From positions 1-38,990 of IMG/VR virus record IMGVR_UViG_3300028563_000002: 38,990 bases of DNA; one strand, written 5' to 3'. This DNA is from a virus. Shown one piece after another: positions 7,363-38,990 of the stretch. The position numbers and the translations under genes are program-made. The notes under the pieces were generated by a model, which saw nothing but the letters and a program-made list of their open reading frames with translations, was not told the origin of the DNA and made no database searches. The stretch's first letter is position 1. The number at the start of each line of letters is the position of its first letter.

Positions 7363-7450
7363 TATATAGACAATGTATTTGATCTATATATCACTTCTAT
7401 GTATGTTATATGCCAATTATATATAACACATATGGAGGATATATGATTAT
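7363..7450 (+). repeat. 11-bp TATAT iteron array A (parA operator/centromere candidate)
   Basis: Eight consecutive 11-bp units begin at 7363, 7374, 7385, 7396, 7407, 7418, 7429 and 7440; most start TATAT or CATAT and two are degenerate (TGTAT, TCTAT). The last unit contains the parA start codon, and GGAGGA of the ribosome-binding site lies in unit seven. The period is one helical turn, so all boxes face the same side of DNA. This layout is typical of sites bound cooperatively by ribbon-helix-helix partition proteins (known for ParG and omega families); binding here is inferred. Confidence 0.8.
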
Positions 7451-8084
7451 CGTGATCGGCGGCATCAAAGGTGGCAGTGGTAAAACCACTATCGCGACCA
7501 ATTTAGCCGTGATGCGTTCAATGAGTAAGAAAGTCTTACTAGTTGATGCTGATGAACAGAAAAGCGCATGGGACTGGTCACAACAAAGAGACGAGTTAGA
7601 TAAGAAAGACAATAAATTATGTCATTCTTTTGTTACTGTTTGCATGTCCGGCAAATCAGTTTATTCCAATTTAATTAAACTAACAGAAAACTATGATGAT
7701 ATTATAGTTGATACTGGCGGTCGAGATACAACTTCTCAGCGTTCTGCTCTGTGTGTTGCAGATAAATTAATCCTTCCTTTCAAGCCTAGTTCGATAGATG
7801 TCTGGACTATGATTCCAGTTAAGGCAATTCTTGATGAATGCGTAAATACCAAACTTAAAGTCTATGCCGTGGTAAGCCAAGCTGACCCTATCGGCAAGGA
7901 CAACAAAGAAGCTATTGAAATCCTAAAGGAATACAAAGATATCACAACAATAGAAACAACCATAGGAAACCGAAAGGCTTTCAGAAATGCAGCTGCCGAA
8001 GGTATGGGTGTGTGGGAAATGGAACCTCAAGATAAAAAAGCGTGCTTAGAGATTCAAACGCTTTACGACTTAATATATAGTTGA
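7443..8084 (+). CDS. parA: ParA-type partition ATPase (type Ib, ParF-like)
   Basis: A 213-residue ATPase for segregation of low-copy plasmids. Residues 9-16 are KGGSGKTT, the deviant Walker A with the signature Lys at position 9; VLLVDADEQ (31-39) is the A' motif and DDIIVDTGG the Walker B region. There is no N-terminal HTH domain, so the protein is of the short ParF/Soj-like type that relies on a separate DNA-binding partner. I start at 7443, after TGGAGGAT, instead of an upstream in-frame ATG at 7410. The RHH gene follows 36 bases downstream, and TATAT iterons flank both starts. Presence of parA in a phage genome points to plasmid-like lysogeny. Confidence 0.92.
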   Translation: MIIVIGGIKGGSGKTTIATNLAVMRSMSKKVLLVDADEQKSAWDWSQQRDELDKKDNKLCHSFVTVCMSGKSVYSNLIKLTENYDDIIVDTGGRDTTSQRSALCVADKLILPFKPSSIDVWTMIPVKAILDECVNTKLKVYAVVSQADPIGKDNKEAIEILKEYKDITTIETTIGNRKAFRNAAAEGMGVWEMEPQDKKACLEIQTLYDLIYS

Positions 8085-8128
8085 TATATTGAATTTATAT
8101 ACGGAATATATGGGGGATATATGGCAGT
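8074..8128 (+). repeat. 11-bp TATAT iteron array B
   Basis: Five units start at 8074, 8085, 8096, 8107 and 8118, every one beginning TATAT and separated by exactly 11 bp. The array runs from the last codons of parA into the start of the RHH gene; the final unit supplies its ATG (TATATG) and the fourth holds the GGGGGA ribosome-binding site. Occupancy would block initiation of the RHH gene, a natural autoregulation design. Confidence 0.82.
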
Positions 8129-8372
8129 GAAGAAAAAAACAAACGCTTCTATGGAAAAATTTATTGAGCAAGGAGCGGCTGTTAAATTAGTAGATGAAAA
8201 AGCTTTTAAAAATGTTTTAATTAGGATTCCATATGGGTTATTATTGGAGCTCGATGAATGGAATACCAGAAAACCTTGGATAAATAGAACTCAATGGATT
8301 GTAGAAGCGATACACGAAAAACTAAAGAGAGATTTGAATGAAGAAAAAGAAGACGTTGGAGGACGAGATTAA
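8121..8372 (+). CDS. Ribbon-helix-helix DNA-binding protein, ParB/ParG-like
   Basis: An 83-residue protein with a flexible polar N-tail (1-30) and a C-terminal ribbon-helix-helix: strand NVLIRIP (about 31-37), helix LLLELDEWNTRKP, turn, helix NRTQWIVEAIHEKLKR. Length and architecture match ParG-class centromere-binding proteins that partner short ParA ATPases. ParG's tail uses an Arg to stimulate its ATPase; this tail has Lys but no Arg, so that detail may differ. It is the obvious candidate to bind the 11-bp TATAT iterons at its own start, at parA and at two distant loci. Confidence 0.82.
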   Translation: MAVKKKTNASMEKFIEQGAAVKLVDEKAFKNVLIRIPYGLLLELDEWNTRKPWINRTQWIVEAIHEKLKRDLNEEKEDVGGRD

Positions 8373-22764: not shown

Positions 22765-23943
22765 TTAATCCTTATAAGGGTCAAAAGTTCTATCATCTGC
22801 CATACACACGCCAATAGGTGTCAATGTATGTAAAATTTTTATTGTCCCCGAATGCGCTTCAAGGACTTCTTCAATTCTTTTGTATGCGTAGGGTGATTCA
22901 TCCAAGTCTCCACCGCGGACTTCGACTCCTCGCTGTTTAATCCAAGCATCGTGCAAGTCTTGTTTAACAAGTCCTTCCGTGAGTTGCTTGCCTGTTTTTC
23001 TGTCTCGCTTTCCTTTGGCTTGAGTTCTTCCAAGAAGACGTCCTGCTCCATGCACAGTGGAGTACAAGGAGGCTCTGGATTCAGGGGATTCAATCCCTTC
23101 CAAGATAACTGATATATCCCCCATAGACCCCCCAACGAAGCCCTTTTGACCAGGAAAAGCAGGTGTCGATCCTTTACGCACGACCCACATATCTTTATCA
23201 AAATGTCTTTCTTTCCATGCAAAGTTGTGGTGATTGTGTATCTCTTCTTTAATAGTAGCCCGAAGTATAGTTGCAACCCTGTTGCAAACCCAGTCTCTTC
23301 CCGCGTAAGCATATTTACCAGCAAGTTCCATGCATCTAAGATACTGGGCTCCAAGGTCCGAATTTTCATCAAGAACGACCGGCTCTGCGTGTACGCCATC
23401 TTTTCCTCCTGCTGCTTTTATGAAATGAGTCGCAATACTATGTCCCAAACCGCGGCTCCCAAAATGAACGCCAATCCAAACCCTATTAAGCTCATCCGTA
23501 AAGATATCCACGTAGTGATTACCGCTTCCGACGGTTCCGAGTTGAAGTCTTGCTTTATCTTTAAGATTTCTGAGAATTTCCAATTCGTTCCACACATGGT
23601 CATCGAAGATACTATGCTCCACTTTTTCGCTATTCTTTCTACCCACTCCAAAGGAGATATGTTTTTGTACTTCATTCATTGTCCTATAGATGTTCGCTTT
23701 AAGTGCTTCCACATCGCAATCGCACAAAACAGCCTTGTTACCGCAGGCAATGTCAAAACCGACGCCATTAACACAGATACGTCCTTCATAAGCAATAACG
23801 CCACCAACGGGCACACTATAACCGATATGGTGGTCAGCCATGAGAGCGCCATACACAGCTTCATATTTCATTGCCTCCTTCATCTGAGCTAATGCTTCTG
23901 GTAGGACTTCACCCCACACAGGAATTTGATCTATTACATTCAT
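22765..23943 (-). CDS. rtcB: RtcB-family RNA ligase
   Basis: A 392-residue protein close to the usual length of about 400. RtcB joins RNA 2',3'-cyclic or 3'-phosphate ends to 5'-OH ends with GTP and Mn2+, healing cleaved tRNAs (family knowledge). The metal and guanylylation residues appear intact: Cys67 in GVGFDIACGN, His143 in GTVGSGNHYVDI, His160 in GVHFGSRGLGH, the EIHNHHN cluster near 236-239, RKGSTPA near 256-262, and the GMP-accepting His298 in STVHGAGRLLG. No archease or RtcA gene is nearby. It overlaps the upstream gene by 35 bases inside a leftward operon with an SPFH protein. In a phage the likely purpose is repair of tRNAs cut by host anticodon nucleases or toxins. Confidence 0.93.
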   Translation of the reverse strand: MNVIDQIPVWGEVLPEALAQMKEAMKYEAVYGALMADHHIGYSVPVGGVIAYEGRICVNGVGFDIACGNKAVLCDCDVEALKANIYRTMNEVQKHISFGVGRKNSEKVEHSIFDDHVWNELEILRNLKDKARLQLGTVGSGNHYVDIFTDELNRVWIGVHFGSRGLGHSIATHFIKAAGGKDGVHAEPVVLDENSDLGAQYLRCMELAGKYAYAGRDWVCNRVATILRATIKEEIHNHHNFAWKERHFDKDMWVVRKGSTPAFPGQKGFVGGSMGDISVILEGIESPESRASLYSTVHGAGRLLGRTQAKGKRDRKTGKQLTEGLVKQDLHDAWIKQRGVEVRGGDLDESPYAYKRIEEVLEAHSGTIKILHTLTPIGVCMADDRTFDPYKD

Positions 23944-24412: not shown

Positions 24413-24630
24413 TCTTCAAAATCTTTCCTTATTTGTTCTACAGATTTTTCAATAGCATATTGATAATGTGTGGAACAATAACCCGCTTTAATTACTTCTG
24501 ATAAACACAGAGTTAAGACTTCTATTGAAGTCTCTATAAATGAAATACCTTCAAGCTCGTCCGGAAATCTAGACATCATAAATTCTACTAATTCACCGGC
24601 TGTTTTTCCTACATTCACAAGTTCGGTCAT
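24409..24630 (-). CDS. Small helical protein in RtcB operon (73 aa)
   Basis: I start at the ATG at 24630, whose ATGA overlaps the SPFH stop; upstream extensions run through the SPFH gene. The protein is helical (TAGELVEFMMSRFPDELEG, then SIEVLTLCLSEVIKAGYCS) and ends in basic/acidic residues. Not recognised. It is coupled at both ends, so likely works with SPFH and the 23909 protein. Confidence 0.6.
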   Translation of the reverse strand: MTELVNVGKTAGELVEFMMSRFPDELEGISFIETSIEVLTLCLSEVIKAGYCSTHYQYAIEKSVEQIRKDFEE

Positions 24631-25484
24631 TTGATATTTCCCATAGGAATCATTATTCCAGAATCTGCCCCAACCACATGAGGAAGCTTTCCATCCCATT
24701 TTTGCACTGCTTGCCATTGGATAAGTTCAGGAGTAACGGATTGTGATAGCACGTGATTGGCTTTGGCTTCAGATTCAGCTTGTACAACGGCACACTTAGC
24801 TTGGCCCTCTGCTTTAGCAACCTGCTTCTTCGCTTCTGCTTCAGCCTCTCTAAGCTCATTCTCTCTTTGTTGAGCTCTCTGCATAGCCTCAATTTTAGAA
24901 TTCAAGGCCGTGATGACATTGGGAGGAAAGTGAAATCTACCTATTAGATAAATACGACTAAGTTCAATACCAATAGGAGCTAAATCATTTCTAACATGCG
25001 CTTCTACGTCTTCGAAGAAGGATTCTTTTCCTGAATATAAATCTTCAATGCGAGTATGACTTGCAGACTTGTTAACAGCATCGCGGATATAATTCCGTAT
25101 GAAAACATGGGTAATCTCATCCATTCCTCGTCTATAGCGCTGAAAAATAAGAGGGATAGATTCAGGACGAAGGTGATAAGTGATACCAATATCAGCGGAC
25201 ACAGCCATGCCCTCAGACGTTTGAAAATTGAATCCTTCACGATCACCCTCCCAAGTATCATTTTGTTCAAAGATTGGAAATTGATAGACACTACGCCAAG
25301 GGGCAATCCAGTGCATTCCTACATGCAGTTCTTTTGATTCAACCCCTTTATTATCACCTAATAGGTCGACAACTACTCCAACGTAGCCAGGGGAGATCAT
25401 TTTAAAGCAAAATACCCATGCAATAAAAAGGAATGCCGTGATGCTTCCAAGTACTGTATATCTAAACGTCCGATCTTTTTTCAT
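24627..25484 (-). CDS. SPFH / band-7 (prohibitin-slipin type) membrane protein
   Basis: A 285-residue protein with one N-terminal transmembrane helix (about residues 10-30, VLGSITAFLFIAWVFCF), a band-7 domain with PGYVGVVVDLLG, GMHWIAPW and QTSEGMAVSADIGITYHL, and an Ala/Glu/Lys-rich coiled coil (about 200-245, AEAEAKKQVAKAEGQAKCAV) ending in a short tail. SPFH proteins make ring- or cage-like membrane assemblies and are found near RtcB in several bacterial RNA-repair operons (family knowledge). Here it is transcribed with RtcB and coupled to the next gene. Its partner and function in a phage are open: superinfection, membrane integrity or delayed lysis are possible. Confidence 0.9.
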   Translation of the reverse strand: MKKDRTFRYTVLGSITAFLFIAWVFCFKMISPGYVGVVVDLLGDNKGVESKELHVGMHWIAPWRSVYQFPIFEQNDTWEGDREGFNFQTSEGMAVSADIGITYHLRPESIPLIFQRYRRGMDEITHVFIRNYIRDAVNKSASHTRIEDLYSGKESFFEDVEAHVRNDLAPIGIELSRIYLIGRFHFPPNVITALNSKIEAMQRAQQRENELREAEAEAKKQVAKAEGQAKCAVVQAESEAKANHVLSQSVTPELIQWQAVQKWDGKLPHVVGADSGIMIPMGNIK

Positions 25485-33021: not shown

Positions 33022-33308
33022 ACATAACCCCCTCATTAGCTAATGTTTCCTAAGGGGGAAACGTAACGAATAACGAAAACATATTGCAATTAATATTTGA
33101 TAAATATTATTACAAAATGACTCAGCCGACGCCAATCGACTGAGCCTGAGACTAGAATACCATCAAAAACGCCACAAACCAGGAGAATTGTCGACTAATT
33201 TACGCCCTAGCTAGAGGCTAAAAGCCAACATAATCGGGGAAAGCAAACGTTTCTGCGGATAATCGTAAGTTTTCCTCGATAAAAAAACAACAAATTTTAT
33301 TGAGGAAT
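32966..33308. other. Structured non-coding region before replication genes
   Basis: A 343-bp stretch with no convincing rightward gene. It contains CCCCCT (33030-33035) and AGGGGG (33053-33058) enclosing the perfect palindrome CATTAGCTAATG, with a competing GTTTCC/GGAAAC arm; an AT-rich segment near 33080-33115 containing ATATTT-GAT-AAATAT; and a CTCAG/CTGAG hairpin at about 33122-33145. GAGACTAGAAT (33148-33158) also occurs. It may hold promoters, an antiterminator target or a small RNA. Confidence 0.45.
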
Positions 33309-33584
33309 ATGAAGGATTATAGCGAATTTCCCCCCTTAAAGTACTTCACGAGGGTACTTAAGAGTTGTCCTAAGTCAGCTCTTCTTTACATCCAGTTGTG
33401 GAAGAAGAAGGGCAAGCACATGAATCTTGTCACCGAAAAAAGATACGTCCGCAAAGATTATCTTATCTCGCCAACGATGTTTAGAAATCTGCTGGCACCC
33501 CTGATGTTTCTGAATCTCATTCATTTCATCGAATGCGATGAAAAATTTCAGATCGACATCCTAGGGCCACATTTAAATGATTAG
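33309..33584 (+). CDS. Winged-helix-like small protein before rep (91 aa)
   Basis: From the ATG at 33309 (GAGG just upstream; a TTG at 33300 is the only earlier option). The pattern KSCPKSALLYIQLWKKKGKH, RKDYLISPTMFRNLLAPLMF and LNLIHFIE looks like a winged-helix fold of the kind used by replication or transcription regulators. Its end overlaps the start of the rep leader ORF (ATGATTAG), so translation of the two may be linked. It stands where lambda has cII, upstream of the O-like gene; that positional likeness is not evidence of homology. Confidence 0.62.
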   Translation: MKDYSEFPPLKYFTRVLKSCPKSALLYIQLWKKKGKHMNLVTEKRYVRKDYLISPTMFRNLLAPLMFLNLIHFIECDEKFQIDILGPHLND

Positions 33585-33762
33585 TATAAAACTTTATTGC
33601 TTTACGTGGAACATTTGTGCTAATGTGCTAAATGAAAAAGCCTCGATTCGTAGTCGAGGCTTATTCGGCGGCGTATGGAGACGCCATAATGGTGAACTGA
33701 TGACTCCCATTATATCACTCCATGTAAAAAGATGCAAAGCATTTATGGAGTGCTATGTTTGA
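33577..33762 (+). CDS. Leader ORF overlapping the rep start (61 aa)
   Basis: This frame starts in the end of the preceding gene and stops at 33760-33762, five bases beyond the rep ATG, while running through the SD-sequestering stem. The peptide MISIKLYCFTWNICANVLNE ... MECYV looks non-globular, so its value may lie in the act of translation. That would open the stem and allow coupled initiation of rep, as RepY does for RepZ in IncI-type and Tap for RepA in IncFII plasmids (known systems). No strong ribosome-binding site of its own; coupling to the upstream gene is likely. Confidence 0.5.
   Translation: MISIKLYCFTWNICANVLNEKASIRSRGLFGGVWRRHNGELMTPIISLHVKRCKAFMECYV
33633..33702 (-). ncRNA. Antisense RNA to the rep leader (about 70 nt)
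   Basis: Minus strand: TTGCAT (33732-33737), 17-bp spacer, perfect TATAAT (33709-33714), predicted start near 33701. The RNA would contain the hairpin GGCGT-CTCCAT-ACGCC (33670-33685) and end at GCCTCGA-CTACGAA-TCGAGGC followed by TTTTTC (33634-33662), a good intrinsic terminator. Its loop CTCCAT is complementary to ATGGAG, present both in the sense hairpin loop (33675-33680) and at the rep ribosome-binding site (33745-33750). Position and length also resemble lambda OOP RNA, just upstream of the O-like gene. Confidence 0.68.
33661..33754 (+). promoter_or_regulatory. Rep leader with SD-sequestering stem and pseudoknot option
   Basis: Three structures are visible in the sense RNA. GGCGT/ACGCC shows loop ATGGAG at 33675-33680. 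ATAATGG (33686-33692) pairs with CCATTAT (33707-33713). CACTCCAT (33716-33723) pairs with ATGGAGTG (33745-33752), burying the GGAG four bases before the rep ATG. The first loop can pair with CTCCAT 33718-33723, which would free the ribosome-binding site: an activator pseudoknot as known for repZ of IncI plasmids. Confidence 0.65.
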
Positions 33763-34570
33763 GCGTTTCCTAAAATTTATTCCTTCTGAGGAAGCCTTCT
33801 GGCTTATGGAAAATAAGCCAAACGCTTTCCGCTTGCTCACCCATATAGCTAATACCGCGCGTCGATATAACGGTCATCCCGACGGATTAACCATCGGTCA
33901 ATGTCATTTGCAATCCTGGACTTTTTACAAATTAACCGAGCAAGAATATCGAACTGCCAAAGAGGTGCTCGTTAAGCGAAAACATATAAAGATAATTGAA
34001 ACTAACAGAACACGCAAAAAGTCAACGACCGGAGTAACGACCAATTCAACACTCGTAGAACTATGTAGCTTAATGATTTGGGATATAAATCCTGAAGAAT
34101 GTAACGACCGAATCAACGACCGAGCAACGACCGAGCAACGACCGAGCAACGACAAACAAGAAAGAAGAAGAATAGATATATCTAACGATATATCTAATAA
34201 AGAAGATGCTCCGCTCGATGGAGCTCATCCGGCTTCGCCGATTCGCTCAAAAGATTTATTGATTTTCAATTTTGAGAAATGGGAATTCGAAGGCATCACC
34301 GAGAAAGATATCGCTGATTGGAAACTCATGTATCCCCATATCGACCTAACGGTCGAAACTCTCAAAGCTAGCCAATGGCTAAAGAATAACCCATCAAAAA
34401 GCAACAAAAAACAGTGGAGGAAATACCTCACAGGATGGTTTGGACGTGCAAATGACTCAATCGAAAACAAAAAAGCTTACCGATCTGCTTCCGGCAGCGG
34501 TAGCCAAGATCGCAGCACCAAAGATATCAACGGAAACCCTGTCGCTAACCCCTACGCAGGAAAGTTCTAG
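33755..34570 (+). CDS. Replication initiator / replisome organiser (lambda O-like role)
   Basis: A 271-residue protein. The N-terminal 100 residues form a winged-helix domain (FLKFIPSEEAFWLMENKPNA, ARRYNGHPDGLTIGQC, LTEQEYRTAKEVLVKRKHIK), a type seen in phage replisome organisers. A low-complexity linker NDRINDRATTEQRPSNDKQ is translated from tandem DNA iterons. The C-terminal part (YPHIDLTVETLKASQWLKNN ... KQWRKYLTGWFGRA) resembles domains that recruit helicase loaders. The helicase-loader gene follows. Translation is probably controlled by the leader hairpins and antisense RNA upstream. I recall similar proteins from Chlamydiae-type genomes, which is a weak host hint. Confidence 0.8.
   Translation: MFERFLKFIPSEEAFWLMENKPNAFRLLTHIANTARRYNGHPDGLTIGQCHLQSWTFYKLTEQEYRTAKEVLVKRKHIKIIETNRTRKKSTTGVTTNSTLVELCSLMIWDINPEECNDRINDRATTEQRPSNDKQERRRIDISNDISNKEDAPLDGAHPASPIRSKDLLIFNFEKWEFEGITEKDIADWKLMYPHIDLTVETLKASQWLKNNPSKSNKKQWRKYLTGWFGRANDSIENKKAYRSASGSGSQDRSTKDINGNPVANPYAGKF
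34103..34198 (+). other. Candidate replication origin inside the rep gene
   Basis: Five direct repeats of AACGACCGAGC (units at 34103, 34115, 34126, 34137, 34148; the first and last degenerate) run at an 11-bp period, the first gap being 12. They are followed by a purine-rich stretch and two AT-rich 12-mers, GATATATCTAAC (34175-34186) and GATATATCTAAT (34187-34198). Iterons plus an AT-rich unwinding region within the initiator gene is the layout of lambda ori in O. Confidence 0.72.
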
Positions 34571-34577
34571 GAAACCT

Positions 34578-35081
34578 ATGGTCAAGATAAGCGAAATAAA
34601 CGAAAAGCCAGAAGAATACATGCGCCATGTGCATGAGTTTGTGGCAAATCCAGTAGGTTTTTTTCTCATCTCTGGAAACAATGGCAATGGCAAAACATTC
34701 ACTTCTCAAGCTATCTACGATAAGTTTTGGCATCCCCACACAGACAATCAATTTTGGAATCAAGCTGACCTGAAGATGAAATGGCAAAGCCTTTACGCCC
34801 AATACGGGAATACTGATTATTTTTTTAATCAGATTGCTCAGGCACCCTTGCTAGTTTTGGACGATATCGGTACAACAAGACCAACAGAAGCTTTTATGGA
34901 ATTTCTTTATGCAATTGCAAACAAGAGAGAGAAACAAAAACACACACACGGGACCATAATTACCACTAATCTAAACTCTAACTCGATGAGAGAGATGTTT
35001 GGAAGTGCTTTTGTTAGTAGAGTTGCTTGTGGTAGATGTGTGAGGCATGACGGTCCGGATAGGCGGCCAATGCTTTTTTAA
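34578..35081 (+). CDS. DnaC/IstB-like helicase loader ATPase
   Basis: AAA+ ATPase with Walker A SGNNGNGKT, Walker B PLLVLDDIG, sensor-1 TIITTNLNS and a terminal arginine segment (SRVACGRCVRHDGPDRRP), as in DnaC-type loaders that place the replicative helicase at the origin. Directly follows rep, seven bases after its stop, with AGGAAA before the ATG at 34578. A longer start at 34440/34452 would add KKLTDLLPAAVAKIAAPKI and overlap rep by over 100 bases; that extension reads like a possible N-terminal domain, so the start is uncertain. Confidence 0.85.
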   Translation: MVKISEINEKPEEYMRHVHEFVANPVGFFLISGNNGNGKTFTSQAIYDKFWHPHTDNQFWNQADLKMKWQSLYAQYGNTDYFFNQIAQAPLLVLDDIGTTRPTEAFMEFLYAIANKREKQKHTHGTIITTNLNSNSMREMFGSAFVSRVACGRCVRHDGPDRRPMLF

Positions 35082-35958: not shown

Positions 35959-36198
35959 ATGTTAACGCCAGTAGGAAAAAGAATTCTTGTAAAACCTGTC
36001 GAAGTCAAACACGGCAATCTGATTGTTTCAGGTCAAAAACCCACCCAGTTTCACGTCATTACAATCGGCGACGAAGTCACAAAAGTGAAATCGGGCGATA
36101 CGATTTACATGGATAAACATTATGGCGCGGAAATCGAACACGAGAAAGAGAAATATTTAGTAATTGATGAATCTTCAATACTAGCAAAGCTTGACTAG
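35959..36198 (+). CDS. GroES-like co-chaperonin (short)
   Basis: 79 residues fitting the Cpn10 barrel: PVGKRILVKPVEVKHGNLIV at the start, VITIGDEVTKVKSGDTIYMD in the middle and KYLVIDESSILAKL at the end, matching the GroES strands KPLDVKVGDIVIF and VLIMSESDILAIV. Host GroES is about 97 residues; here the mobile loop that binds GroEL is cut to roughly HGNLIVSGQKP. The protein probably redirects host GroEL towards phage coat folding, as T4 gp31 does (known). TAGGAG upstream. It lies in the late-region run before the small terminase. Confidence 0.85.
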   Translation: MLTPVGKRILVKPVEVKHGNLIVSGQKPTQFHVITIGDEVTKVKSGDTIYMDKHYGAEIEHEKEKYLVIDESSILAKLD

Positions 36199-38018: not shown

Positions 38019-38990
38019 TGGAAGAATACATTCCGACTCAGGATGAGCTTAACGATAAGTTATGGCGTCTTACTCATCTCTATTACATCACAAACAAATC
38101 CGGCGAAGAAGTCCTCTTTGACCTCAATTGGGCGCAGAAAGAGCTATTCCATAAGGAATGGCATCAAATGCTAGTTCTTAAAGCGCGTCAGCTTGGAGTC
38201 ACTACATATTTCTCAATAAACTTCTTGGATGATTGCTTTTGGCATGGCAATACTCATGCGGGAATTATTGCACATCGTAAAGAAGACGCCGAAGATATCT
38301 TTAAAAAGAAGGTTAAATATGCCTACGACAGAATGCCTCAATGGACTCGAACCTTTAACTCAGCAACAAACGACCGAAGTGGTGAGCTTGCTTTCGAGAA
38401 TGGCTCTAGTTATAGAGTCTCTACAGGATTTCGATCAGGAACTTACCAACGGCTGCTTGTATCCGAGTTTGGAAAGATATGCGCAAAATCACCTGATGTT
38501 GCTAAAGAGATCGTCACAGGAAGCCTTAATACAGTTTCTTCAGATCAGGTTATCGCTATCGAGTCGACTGCTGAAGGGCGAGAAGGATATTTCTACGAAT
38601 TTAGTAAGCAAGCCGAGGCCCTATCCTTGCTTGGACGGGAGTTGTCTGCAATGCAACAAAGATTCTTCTTTTTCCCTTGGTACGACGAACCAGGATACCG
38701 AGAAGCAAGCCAGGAAATCACCGTGAGTAAAGAAACTAACGAATATCTTGATAAGATTGAATTGGAACGTCAAAGAAAGATTGATGAAGAACAGCGACGC
38801 TGGTATGAAATGAAACTTAAGATGCTTGGCGATGCCATGAAGCAAGAATATCCATCAACTCCTAAAGAGGCATTTGAAAGTGCAAACGAAGGTCTTTATT
38901 ACGGTGTACAGCTCGCTAAATTGCGTGCTAATGGGAGCTTGTGTCGGGTACCCTATGACGATTCAAATGTGGTGCATACTGCTTGGGACA
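38018..38990 (+). CDS. Terminase large subunit, N-terminal part (continues at base 1)
   Basis: The ATPase half of the packaging motor. With AAGGAG upstream I start at ATG 38018; ATG 38015 in the same frame is possible. Residues 53-63 contain Walker A LVLKARQLGVTT, and 145-151 hold Walker B RLLVSEFG with the catalytic Glu after Ser; a coupling motif follows in AIESTAEGREGYFYE. The reading frame has no stop before the window's end. Exactly 282 codons precede base 38864, where the duplicated 127 bases begin, so the protein continues in frame at base 1 and ends at 663 (about 502 residues). Confidence 0.93.
   Translation, partial: MEEYIPTQDELNDKLWRLTHLYYITNKSGEEVLFDLNWAQKELFHKEWHQMLVLKARQLGVTTYFSINFLDDCFWHGNTHAGIIAHRKEDAEDIFKKKVKYAYDRMPQWTRTFNSATNDRSGELAFENGSSYRVSTGFRSGTYQRLLVSEFGKICAKSPDVAKEIVTGSLNTVSSDQVIAIESTAEGREGYFYEFSKQAEALSLLGRELSAMQQRFFFFPWYDEPGYREASQEITVSKETNEYLDKIELERQRKIDEEQRRWYEMKLKMLGDAMKQEYPSTPKEAFESANEGLYYGVQLAKLRANGSLCRVPYDDSNVVHTAWD
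38864..38990. repeat. Terminal direct repeat, right copy (assembly overlap)
   Basis: Identical to 1-127. Removing one copy closes the genome to a 38,863-bp circle and restores a single large terminase gene. Confidence 0.95.

Follow-up and report, generated by a model that had tools for sequence, protein, structure and literature searches.

The window, that is, the whole stretch of 38,990 nucleotides analyzed here (IMG/VR virus record IMGVR_UViG_3300028563_000002), represents a circular assembly of 38,863 bp with a 127-nt direct terminal repeat (positions 1 to 127 and 38864 to 38990), the joint of which is crossed by the terminase gene. The contigs of four relatives (L006, L016, L022, and L028) have comparable end repeats of 120 to 127 nt. 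The gene content includes a P22-type portal, ERF and YqaJ recombination genes, ParA, and a DnaC-like loader. The features considered below, most of them within the short leader that precedes rep, are listed in Table 1. We take rep to encode a putative replication initiator on the grounds of its iterons, the DnaC-like loader, and its position. Its product had no family match in Pfam or PHROG, no detectable relation to RepA/RepZ-family proteins, and no plasmid match. In the AlphaFold model (mean pLDDT of the whole model, 65.8), the N-terminal domain was confident and winged-helix-like. A fold search gave no significant match in the PDB; it did retrieve four phage proteins at values below 0.001, of which one bears the name helix-turn-helix. 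The iterons, also found at positions 34024 to 34042, are shared with L002 and L014, while in L022 the repeated unit is altered to GGGCGACCGAG in every copy. The conserved ORF upstream of the leader had no Pfam or PHROG match. Farther upstream, there is another strong leftward terminator-like hairpin of 12 pairs (positions 33119 to 33146, minus strand).

Table 1. Features of the window discussed in the text, with the basis for each assignment
Feature	Position	Strand	Basis
ParA-type partition ATPase	7410–8084	+	phrog_164, 2.6e-41
Conserved ORF of ca. 91 to 94 aa, unknown family, overlapping the leader ATG	33309–33584	+	60 to 87% identical in 22 relatives
Leader ORF, 61 codons, TGA at 33760–33762, stop overlapping the rep start	33577–33762	+	Frame conservation
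Rightward promoter motif, TTGCTT-N18-TAATGT with TGn (extended −10), probable rep promoter, +1 at ca. 33634	33597–33626	+	Conservation
Predicted antisense RNA of ca. 69 nt (5′ tail, CUCCAU-loop hairpin, terminator)	33634–33702	−	Fold, conserved promoter and terminator
Terminator hairpin that ends the antisense RNA and begins the rep mRNA	33638–33662	−	Conservation
SL1, target hairpin GGCGT-ATGGAG-ACGCC, loop AUGGAG at 33675–33680	33670–33685	+	Sequence, alignment
SL2, hairpin separating SL1 from the arm, 3′ strand carrying the antisense −10	33686–33713	+	Pairing kept in most relatives
Leftward promoter of the antisense RNA, TTGCAT-N17-TATAAT (−35, 33737–33732; −10, 33714–33709)	33709–33737	−	Conservation, consensus scan
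SL3, RBS-hiding hairpin CACUCCAU/AUGGAGUG	33716–33752	+	Covariation
CUCCAU shared arm, pairing with the SL1 loop (pseudoknot) or with the RBS strand	33718–33723	+	Covariation
rep Shine-Dalgarno GGAG	33747–33750	+	Sequence
rep, putative replication initiator, winged-helix-like N terminus	33755–34570	+	AlphaFold, iterons, position
11-bp iterons (AACGACCGAGC), candidate origin, inside rep	34103–34153	+	Repeat seen in sequence
DnaC-like helicase loader, after rep	34578–35081	+	phrog_50, 2e-21

Searches with Rep and the upstream 91-aa ORF yielded 22 distinct relatives, all of them from metagenomes or a metagenome-assembled genome (MAG), which together with the window provided 23 aligned loci. Four further loci carrying the module (L067, L068, L072, and L088) came from a scan of viral contigs for the rightward promoter motif and terminator start, in which neither protein was used; this brought the total to 27 loci, i.e., 26 relatives. 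Seven other matches of this pattern were due to chance. No relative carrying the module was found among the isolated phages and plasmids searched, the upstream ORF had no match in either collection, and the leader DNA had none among isolated phages. A Vibrio phage with a weak Rep match (33% over 55% of the query) was discarded as a relative, since the gap of ca. 50 bases to its preceding gene is too short to hold the leader. Bacterial genomes contributed a single relative, L028. This is a circular contig of 40.4 kb that had been binned with a Verrucomicrobia MAG, and its portal is 93% identical to that of the window. Since the portal was present in no other of 289 Verrucomicrobia genomes sampled, the binning may be either a hint of the host or an artefact. 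Behind the same cassette, L025, L031, L068, and L072 have Rep proteins of different types, pointing to module exchange at the rep start.

The rep ribosome binding site (RBS) is sequestered in a stem, as the initial annotation of this stretch had described it: CACTCCAT (positions 33716 to 33723) pairs with ATGGAGTG (positions 33745 to 33752), covering the GGAG. Over the 23 leaders, 88% of the SL3 pairs are formed, and none of 500 shuffles was as good. The same annotation had pointed out that the loop ATGGAG of an upstream hairpin (SL1) is complementary to CTCCAT in the hiding arm and had proposed covariation in related phages as a check. Both pairings covary. In the loop-arm pseudoknot, 82% of the pairs are formed across the 23 leaders, with 22 double-changed cells compared with 8.4 ± 3.5 in shuffles (0 of 500), and the pairing in register beats every slid version of it. 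Between the two partners lies SL2, not mentioned in the initial annotation (AUAAUGG/CCAUUAU in the window and AAUAGGAUC/GAUCCUAUU in L015), whose letters differ in most loci while the pairing is kept. With 0 nt between it and SL1 and four nt to the pseudoknot arm, SL2 brings the SL1 loop and the arm close to each other.

Automatic helix detection put SL1 in the wrong place in L006 and L033; the permutation tests were therefore based on shift-tolerant regions, each SL1 region being compared with its own arm versus the arms of the other loci. Own SL1-arm complementarity was not equaled in any of 100,000 permutations, with either 23 or 27 loci, in a test that does not model phylogeny. The arm also pairs with the RBS, and for that reason arms were further permuted only among loci sharing the first six arm bases, which leaves the SL3 core fixed; the association persisted (P = 0.0014). 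In L019 (GUAGGGG/CCCCUAC) and L036 (UCAUGGAA/UUCCAUGA), the loop tracks the arm even outside its RBS-pairing segment. As a partial answer to the lack of phylogeny in these tests, we counted changes on the upstream-gene tree, where the four most variable pseudoknot columns change 5 to 12 times per side, so that shared ancestry does not explain the covariation. One locus (L004) has no convincing loop-arm pairing, and in four others (L003, L027, L068, and L072) it is short, weak, or interrupted. The duplex energies of the pseudoknot overlap those of SL3, an overlap that a switch requires.

The sense leader is more stably folded than its shuffled versions (z = −3.85). SL1 is not part of the lowest-energy structure predicted for the window mRNA alone. 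RNAalifold on the MAFFT alignment recovered the terminator hairpin as the sole structure, and Rfam gave no match at gathering score. The MAFFT-based count of SL1 pairs formed in the 23 leaders (38%) understates this hairpin, given that its stem shifts between loci. Given the covariation, we consider the conserved RNA switch to be very probably real and working.

On the opposite strand, the proposed leftward promoter and terminator, delimiting an RNA of about 70 nt with a CTCCAT loop, are both in place. The promoter, as TAnnnT-17-TTG, occurs at the same location in all 23 aligned loci. A consensus scan detected it in a register shifted by one base (10/12, with TG before the −10); the scan listed 3 promoter-like sites versus 3.5 expected, and one such site alone would be unremarkable. 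The terminator (stem and T run) was recovered independently by a scan for leftward terminators, and in the 23 leaders its hairpin keeps 91% of the pairs, five of them with compensatory changes. The predicted 69-nt RNA folds as a hairpin plus terminator (−22.6 kcal/mol; z = −4.8 versus shuffled sequences). One terminator pair in L006, L034, and L068 is C-A on the sense strand and U-G on the antisense strand, which favors selection acting on the antisense RNA; these three lineages apart, the polarity of G-U versus A-C pairs over all loci was not decisive for the strand.

The rightward promoter motif (TTG-N18-TGnTAnnnT), likewise not mentioned in the initial annotation, is invariant in 23 of 23 loci, even though it lies within the leader ORF, third codon positions included. 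The T residues at leader positions 21, 42, and 45 are invariant third codon positions in codons whose amino acids vary, so it is the DNA and not the peptide that is kept in this part of the leader. Of the 30 invariant leader positions, the majority belong to the two promoters, the terminator with its A/T run, and the rep start. As the motif is a poor match to the Escherichia coli consensus and is not listed by a simple scan, its assignment rests on conservation. Judging from its position, the main rep mRNA probably begins at ca. 33634, where the antisense RNA ends and 57 nt 3′ of the leader ATG, and would thus not include that ATG.

Together, these elements suggest an antisense/pseudoknot translational on/off switch for the putative phage replication initiator, a reading to which we assign a probability of about 0.72. 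Comparison of the loci establishes the pairings, the two promoter motifs, the terminator, and the open leader frame; we infer transcription from both promoters, the direction of regulation, and folding of the mRNA as it is being made. The rep mRNA starting at the leader-internal promoter would open with the terminator hairpin, followed by SL1, SL2, and SL3. With SL1 free, its loop would pair with the newly transcribed shared arm, and the resulting pseudoknot would hold the arm away from the Shine-Dalgarno sequence, allowing rep to be translated. A constitutive 69-nt antisense RNA would bind SL1 and block the pseudoknot, SL3 would then close over the Shine-Dalgarno sequence, and rep would be off. 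More genome copies would mean more antisense RNA and, therefore, lower rep output. On the other hand, mRNAs reading through from upstream would carry the full leader ORF, and ribosomes translating through SL3 as far as the overlapping stop would expose the rep site, which would probably serve as a lytic override.

The leader ORF, which does stop five bases past the rep ATG (positions 33755 to 33757), deserves separate consideration. Its frame is open in 21 of 23 loci, where shuffling predicts 0.41 and never exceeded 5 of 23. Each of the other two forward frames is open in none of the loci. In the two loci with a broken frame (L022 and L025), a new ORF begins seven bases after the GGGAG of SL1, and its stop overlaps rep. 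The peptide itself is not conserved and there is no third-position excess of variation, a pattern suggesting that ribosome passage is kept and the peptide is not. The suggestion that a repY-like ORF begins at the leader ATG within the rep mRNA was not supported, both because of this lack of protein-type conservation and because the promoter motif lies downstream of that ATG. Since the ATG precedes the short mRNA, the frame must serve either readthrough transcripts or an internal start. A search of the aligned leaders for a conserved start of this kind, from which the short mRNA could express a repY-like ORF, found none.

Such a well-kept frame is also what would be expected from a leader-peptide attenuator, in which ribosomes translating the leader ORF open SL3 and the antisense RNA acts by blocking that translation, the pseudoknot being of minor importance. 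The CopA/Tap/RepA system of the IncFII plasmid R1 works along these lines and shares with the window the antisense RNA and the coupling of rep to translation of a leader peptide; its initiator is different, and we know of no pseudoknot activation in it. The restart of the frame in L022 and L025 is in agreement with this possibility, and so is the position of the stop, since in every locus the frame that crosses SL3 terminates over the start of rep, with small shifts. However, attenuation of this kind does not require loop-arm covariation, and neither the probable rep promoter 3′ of the leader ATG nor the variable peptide is what it would lead us to expect. We therefore regard it as unlikely.

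The location of the antisense RNA raises another alternative, an OOP-like role, which the initial annotation had already mentioned. In this case, the leftward RNA would affect the upstream gene or convergent transcription, in the manner of lambda pO/OOP, and not rep translation. The map position is indeed that of OOP: in both cases a leftward RNA of ca. 70 nt and its promoter immediately precede an O-like initiator gene with iterons, which in lambda O and in rep are located in mid-gene (PMC3985674). Besides, the two promoters of the window converge over the antisense RNA. The target, however, differs. OOP is antisense to cII and was reported not to alter O-P mRNA stability (PMC3985674), whereas the window RNA has no complementarity to the 3′ end of the upstream gene: it ends ca. 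50 nt short of that ORF (last position, 33584), lies wholly outside it, and cannot pair with it. The available part of the same source describes no pseudoknot with the O RBS for OOP (PMC3985674). An OOP-like logic also predicts no covariation between the SL1 loop and the RBS arm, which is strong here, making this role rather improbable.

A simpler scheme would dispense with the pseudoknot, the CUCCAU loop of the antisense RNA binding the rep Shine-Dalgarno sequence directly in trans. The SL1 loop of the window, like that of many relatives, duplicates the Shine-Dalgarno region, which makes its antisense complementary to this region. Yet the correspondence between antisense loop and RBS was not clearly above permutation (P = 0.056), compared with P = 2e-5 for loop and arm, and in L036, L033, L017, and L014, the loop fits the arm better than its antisense fits the RBS; direct binding thus seems very improbable. 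That the leader merely encodes a small protein, with the RNA pairings as by-products, is hardly credible: an open frame with overlapping start and stop is typical of compact phage genes, but third codon positions are as conserved as the others, the invariant ones are in codons with varying amino acids, and the pairings covary.

A few groups of enterobacterial plasmids are documented to control an initiator through an antisense RNA and a pseudoknot. The closest known system, repY/repZ of the IncI-alpha plasmid ColIb-P9 with its Inc RNA (and likewise IncB/O, IncK, and IncL/M), also sets a short antisense RNA against a target hairpin, with a target loop complementary to sequence beside the stem that blocks the RBS and a leader ORF whose stop overlaps the rep start. 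In the ColIb-P9 sequence, the loop UUGGCG is at positions 325 to 330, CGCC is at positions 436 to 439, the repY TGA is at positions 464 to 466, and repZ starts at position 455. In IncI-type plasmids, the pseudoknot is needed for rep translation (PMC8383071), and their control shares its logic with the switch proposed here (PMC8383071, PMC10724649). Of the repY/repZ parallel drawn from the window sequence at the outset, the antisense RNA, the hidden RBS, and the loop-arm pseudoknot are supported, while the repY-like leader start is not. The conserved promoter and terminator predict a small RNA gene complementary to the target hairpin in the rep leader, covariation ties the target loop to the RBS-sequestering strand, and the frame open in 21 of 23 loci supports, indirectly, translation coupled to the rep start.

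There are also clear differences. The pairing sequences are ca. 106 nt apart in ColIb-P9 and ca. 38 nt apart in the window. repY starts 3′ of SLI, whereas in 21 of 23 loci, the window included, the leader starts upstream of both the target hairpin and the rightward promoter; only L022 and L025 have a leader ORF beginning 3′ of the target hairpin, the ColIb-P9 layout. Finally, the initiator is unrelated, and the IncI replicon is a conjugative plasmid and not a phage. The window thus falls outside the IncI type on account of its initiator and, in most loci, of the leader start position. The best reading is a translational switch of IncI-like antisense/pseudoknot design, carried by an uncultured phage lineage at the place where OOP lies on the lambda map. 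We found no antisense/pseudoknot switch on a phage-type initiator in the open-licence literature searched.

Copy control of an episome is a possible use of the switch to which we give less weight than to the switch itself. It is suggested by the presence of ParA in 8 of 23 records, the circular assemblies, and the lack of integrases: no integrase or resolvase domain (PF00589 or PF00239) was found in the window, and no tyrosine integrase or serine resolvase was found in the 22 viral records. With phage structural genes, a partition gene, and no integrase, the window has the gene combination that defines phage-plasmids. The other 15 of the 23 records lack ParA even though several of them have full phage length, and partition is therefore not a general trait. 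The window phage may have a stable extrachromosomal prophage state, the circular assembly in itself indicating only circular or terminally redundant DNA. Phages as partitioned replicons are represented by the phage-plasmids P1, N15, and SSU5 and by extrachromosomal mycobacteriophage prophages (RepA or RNA based). An RNA takes part in some of the latter (PMC7157519), where, in contrast to the RNA of the window, it initiates replication. The Inc types listed for the P1 and pMT1 groups include IncFII (PMC11652158).

If the switch is confirmed, its logic would be portable or would have evolved more than once, considering the unrelated phage initiator and the independent covariation, and phages of this kind could run a plasmid-type copy control. 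It would also provide a testable circuit for how episomal prophages limit their copy number, and diverged loop-arm sequences would predict mutually incompatible phages. For the lineage as a whole, we tentatively propose, at somewhat less than even odds, a switch independent of IncI that acts as a portable copy module of episomal prophages, in which the cassette of ca. 180 nt is kept, the initiator is exchanged, and loop and arm diverge like incompatibility types.

Two observations on other parts of the genome can be added. At positions 7410 to 8372, the ParA-type ATPase is followed by a small protein that weakly matches short phage families, a repressor included, and the two may form a partition pair. 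In addition, the phage encodes a Cpn10 (GroES-like) protein (positions 35959 to 36195), an RtcB RNA ligase (positions 22765 to 23943), and an SPFH/Band 7 membrane protein (positions 24627 to 25484).
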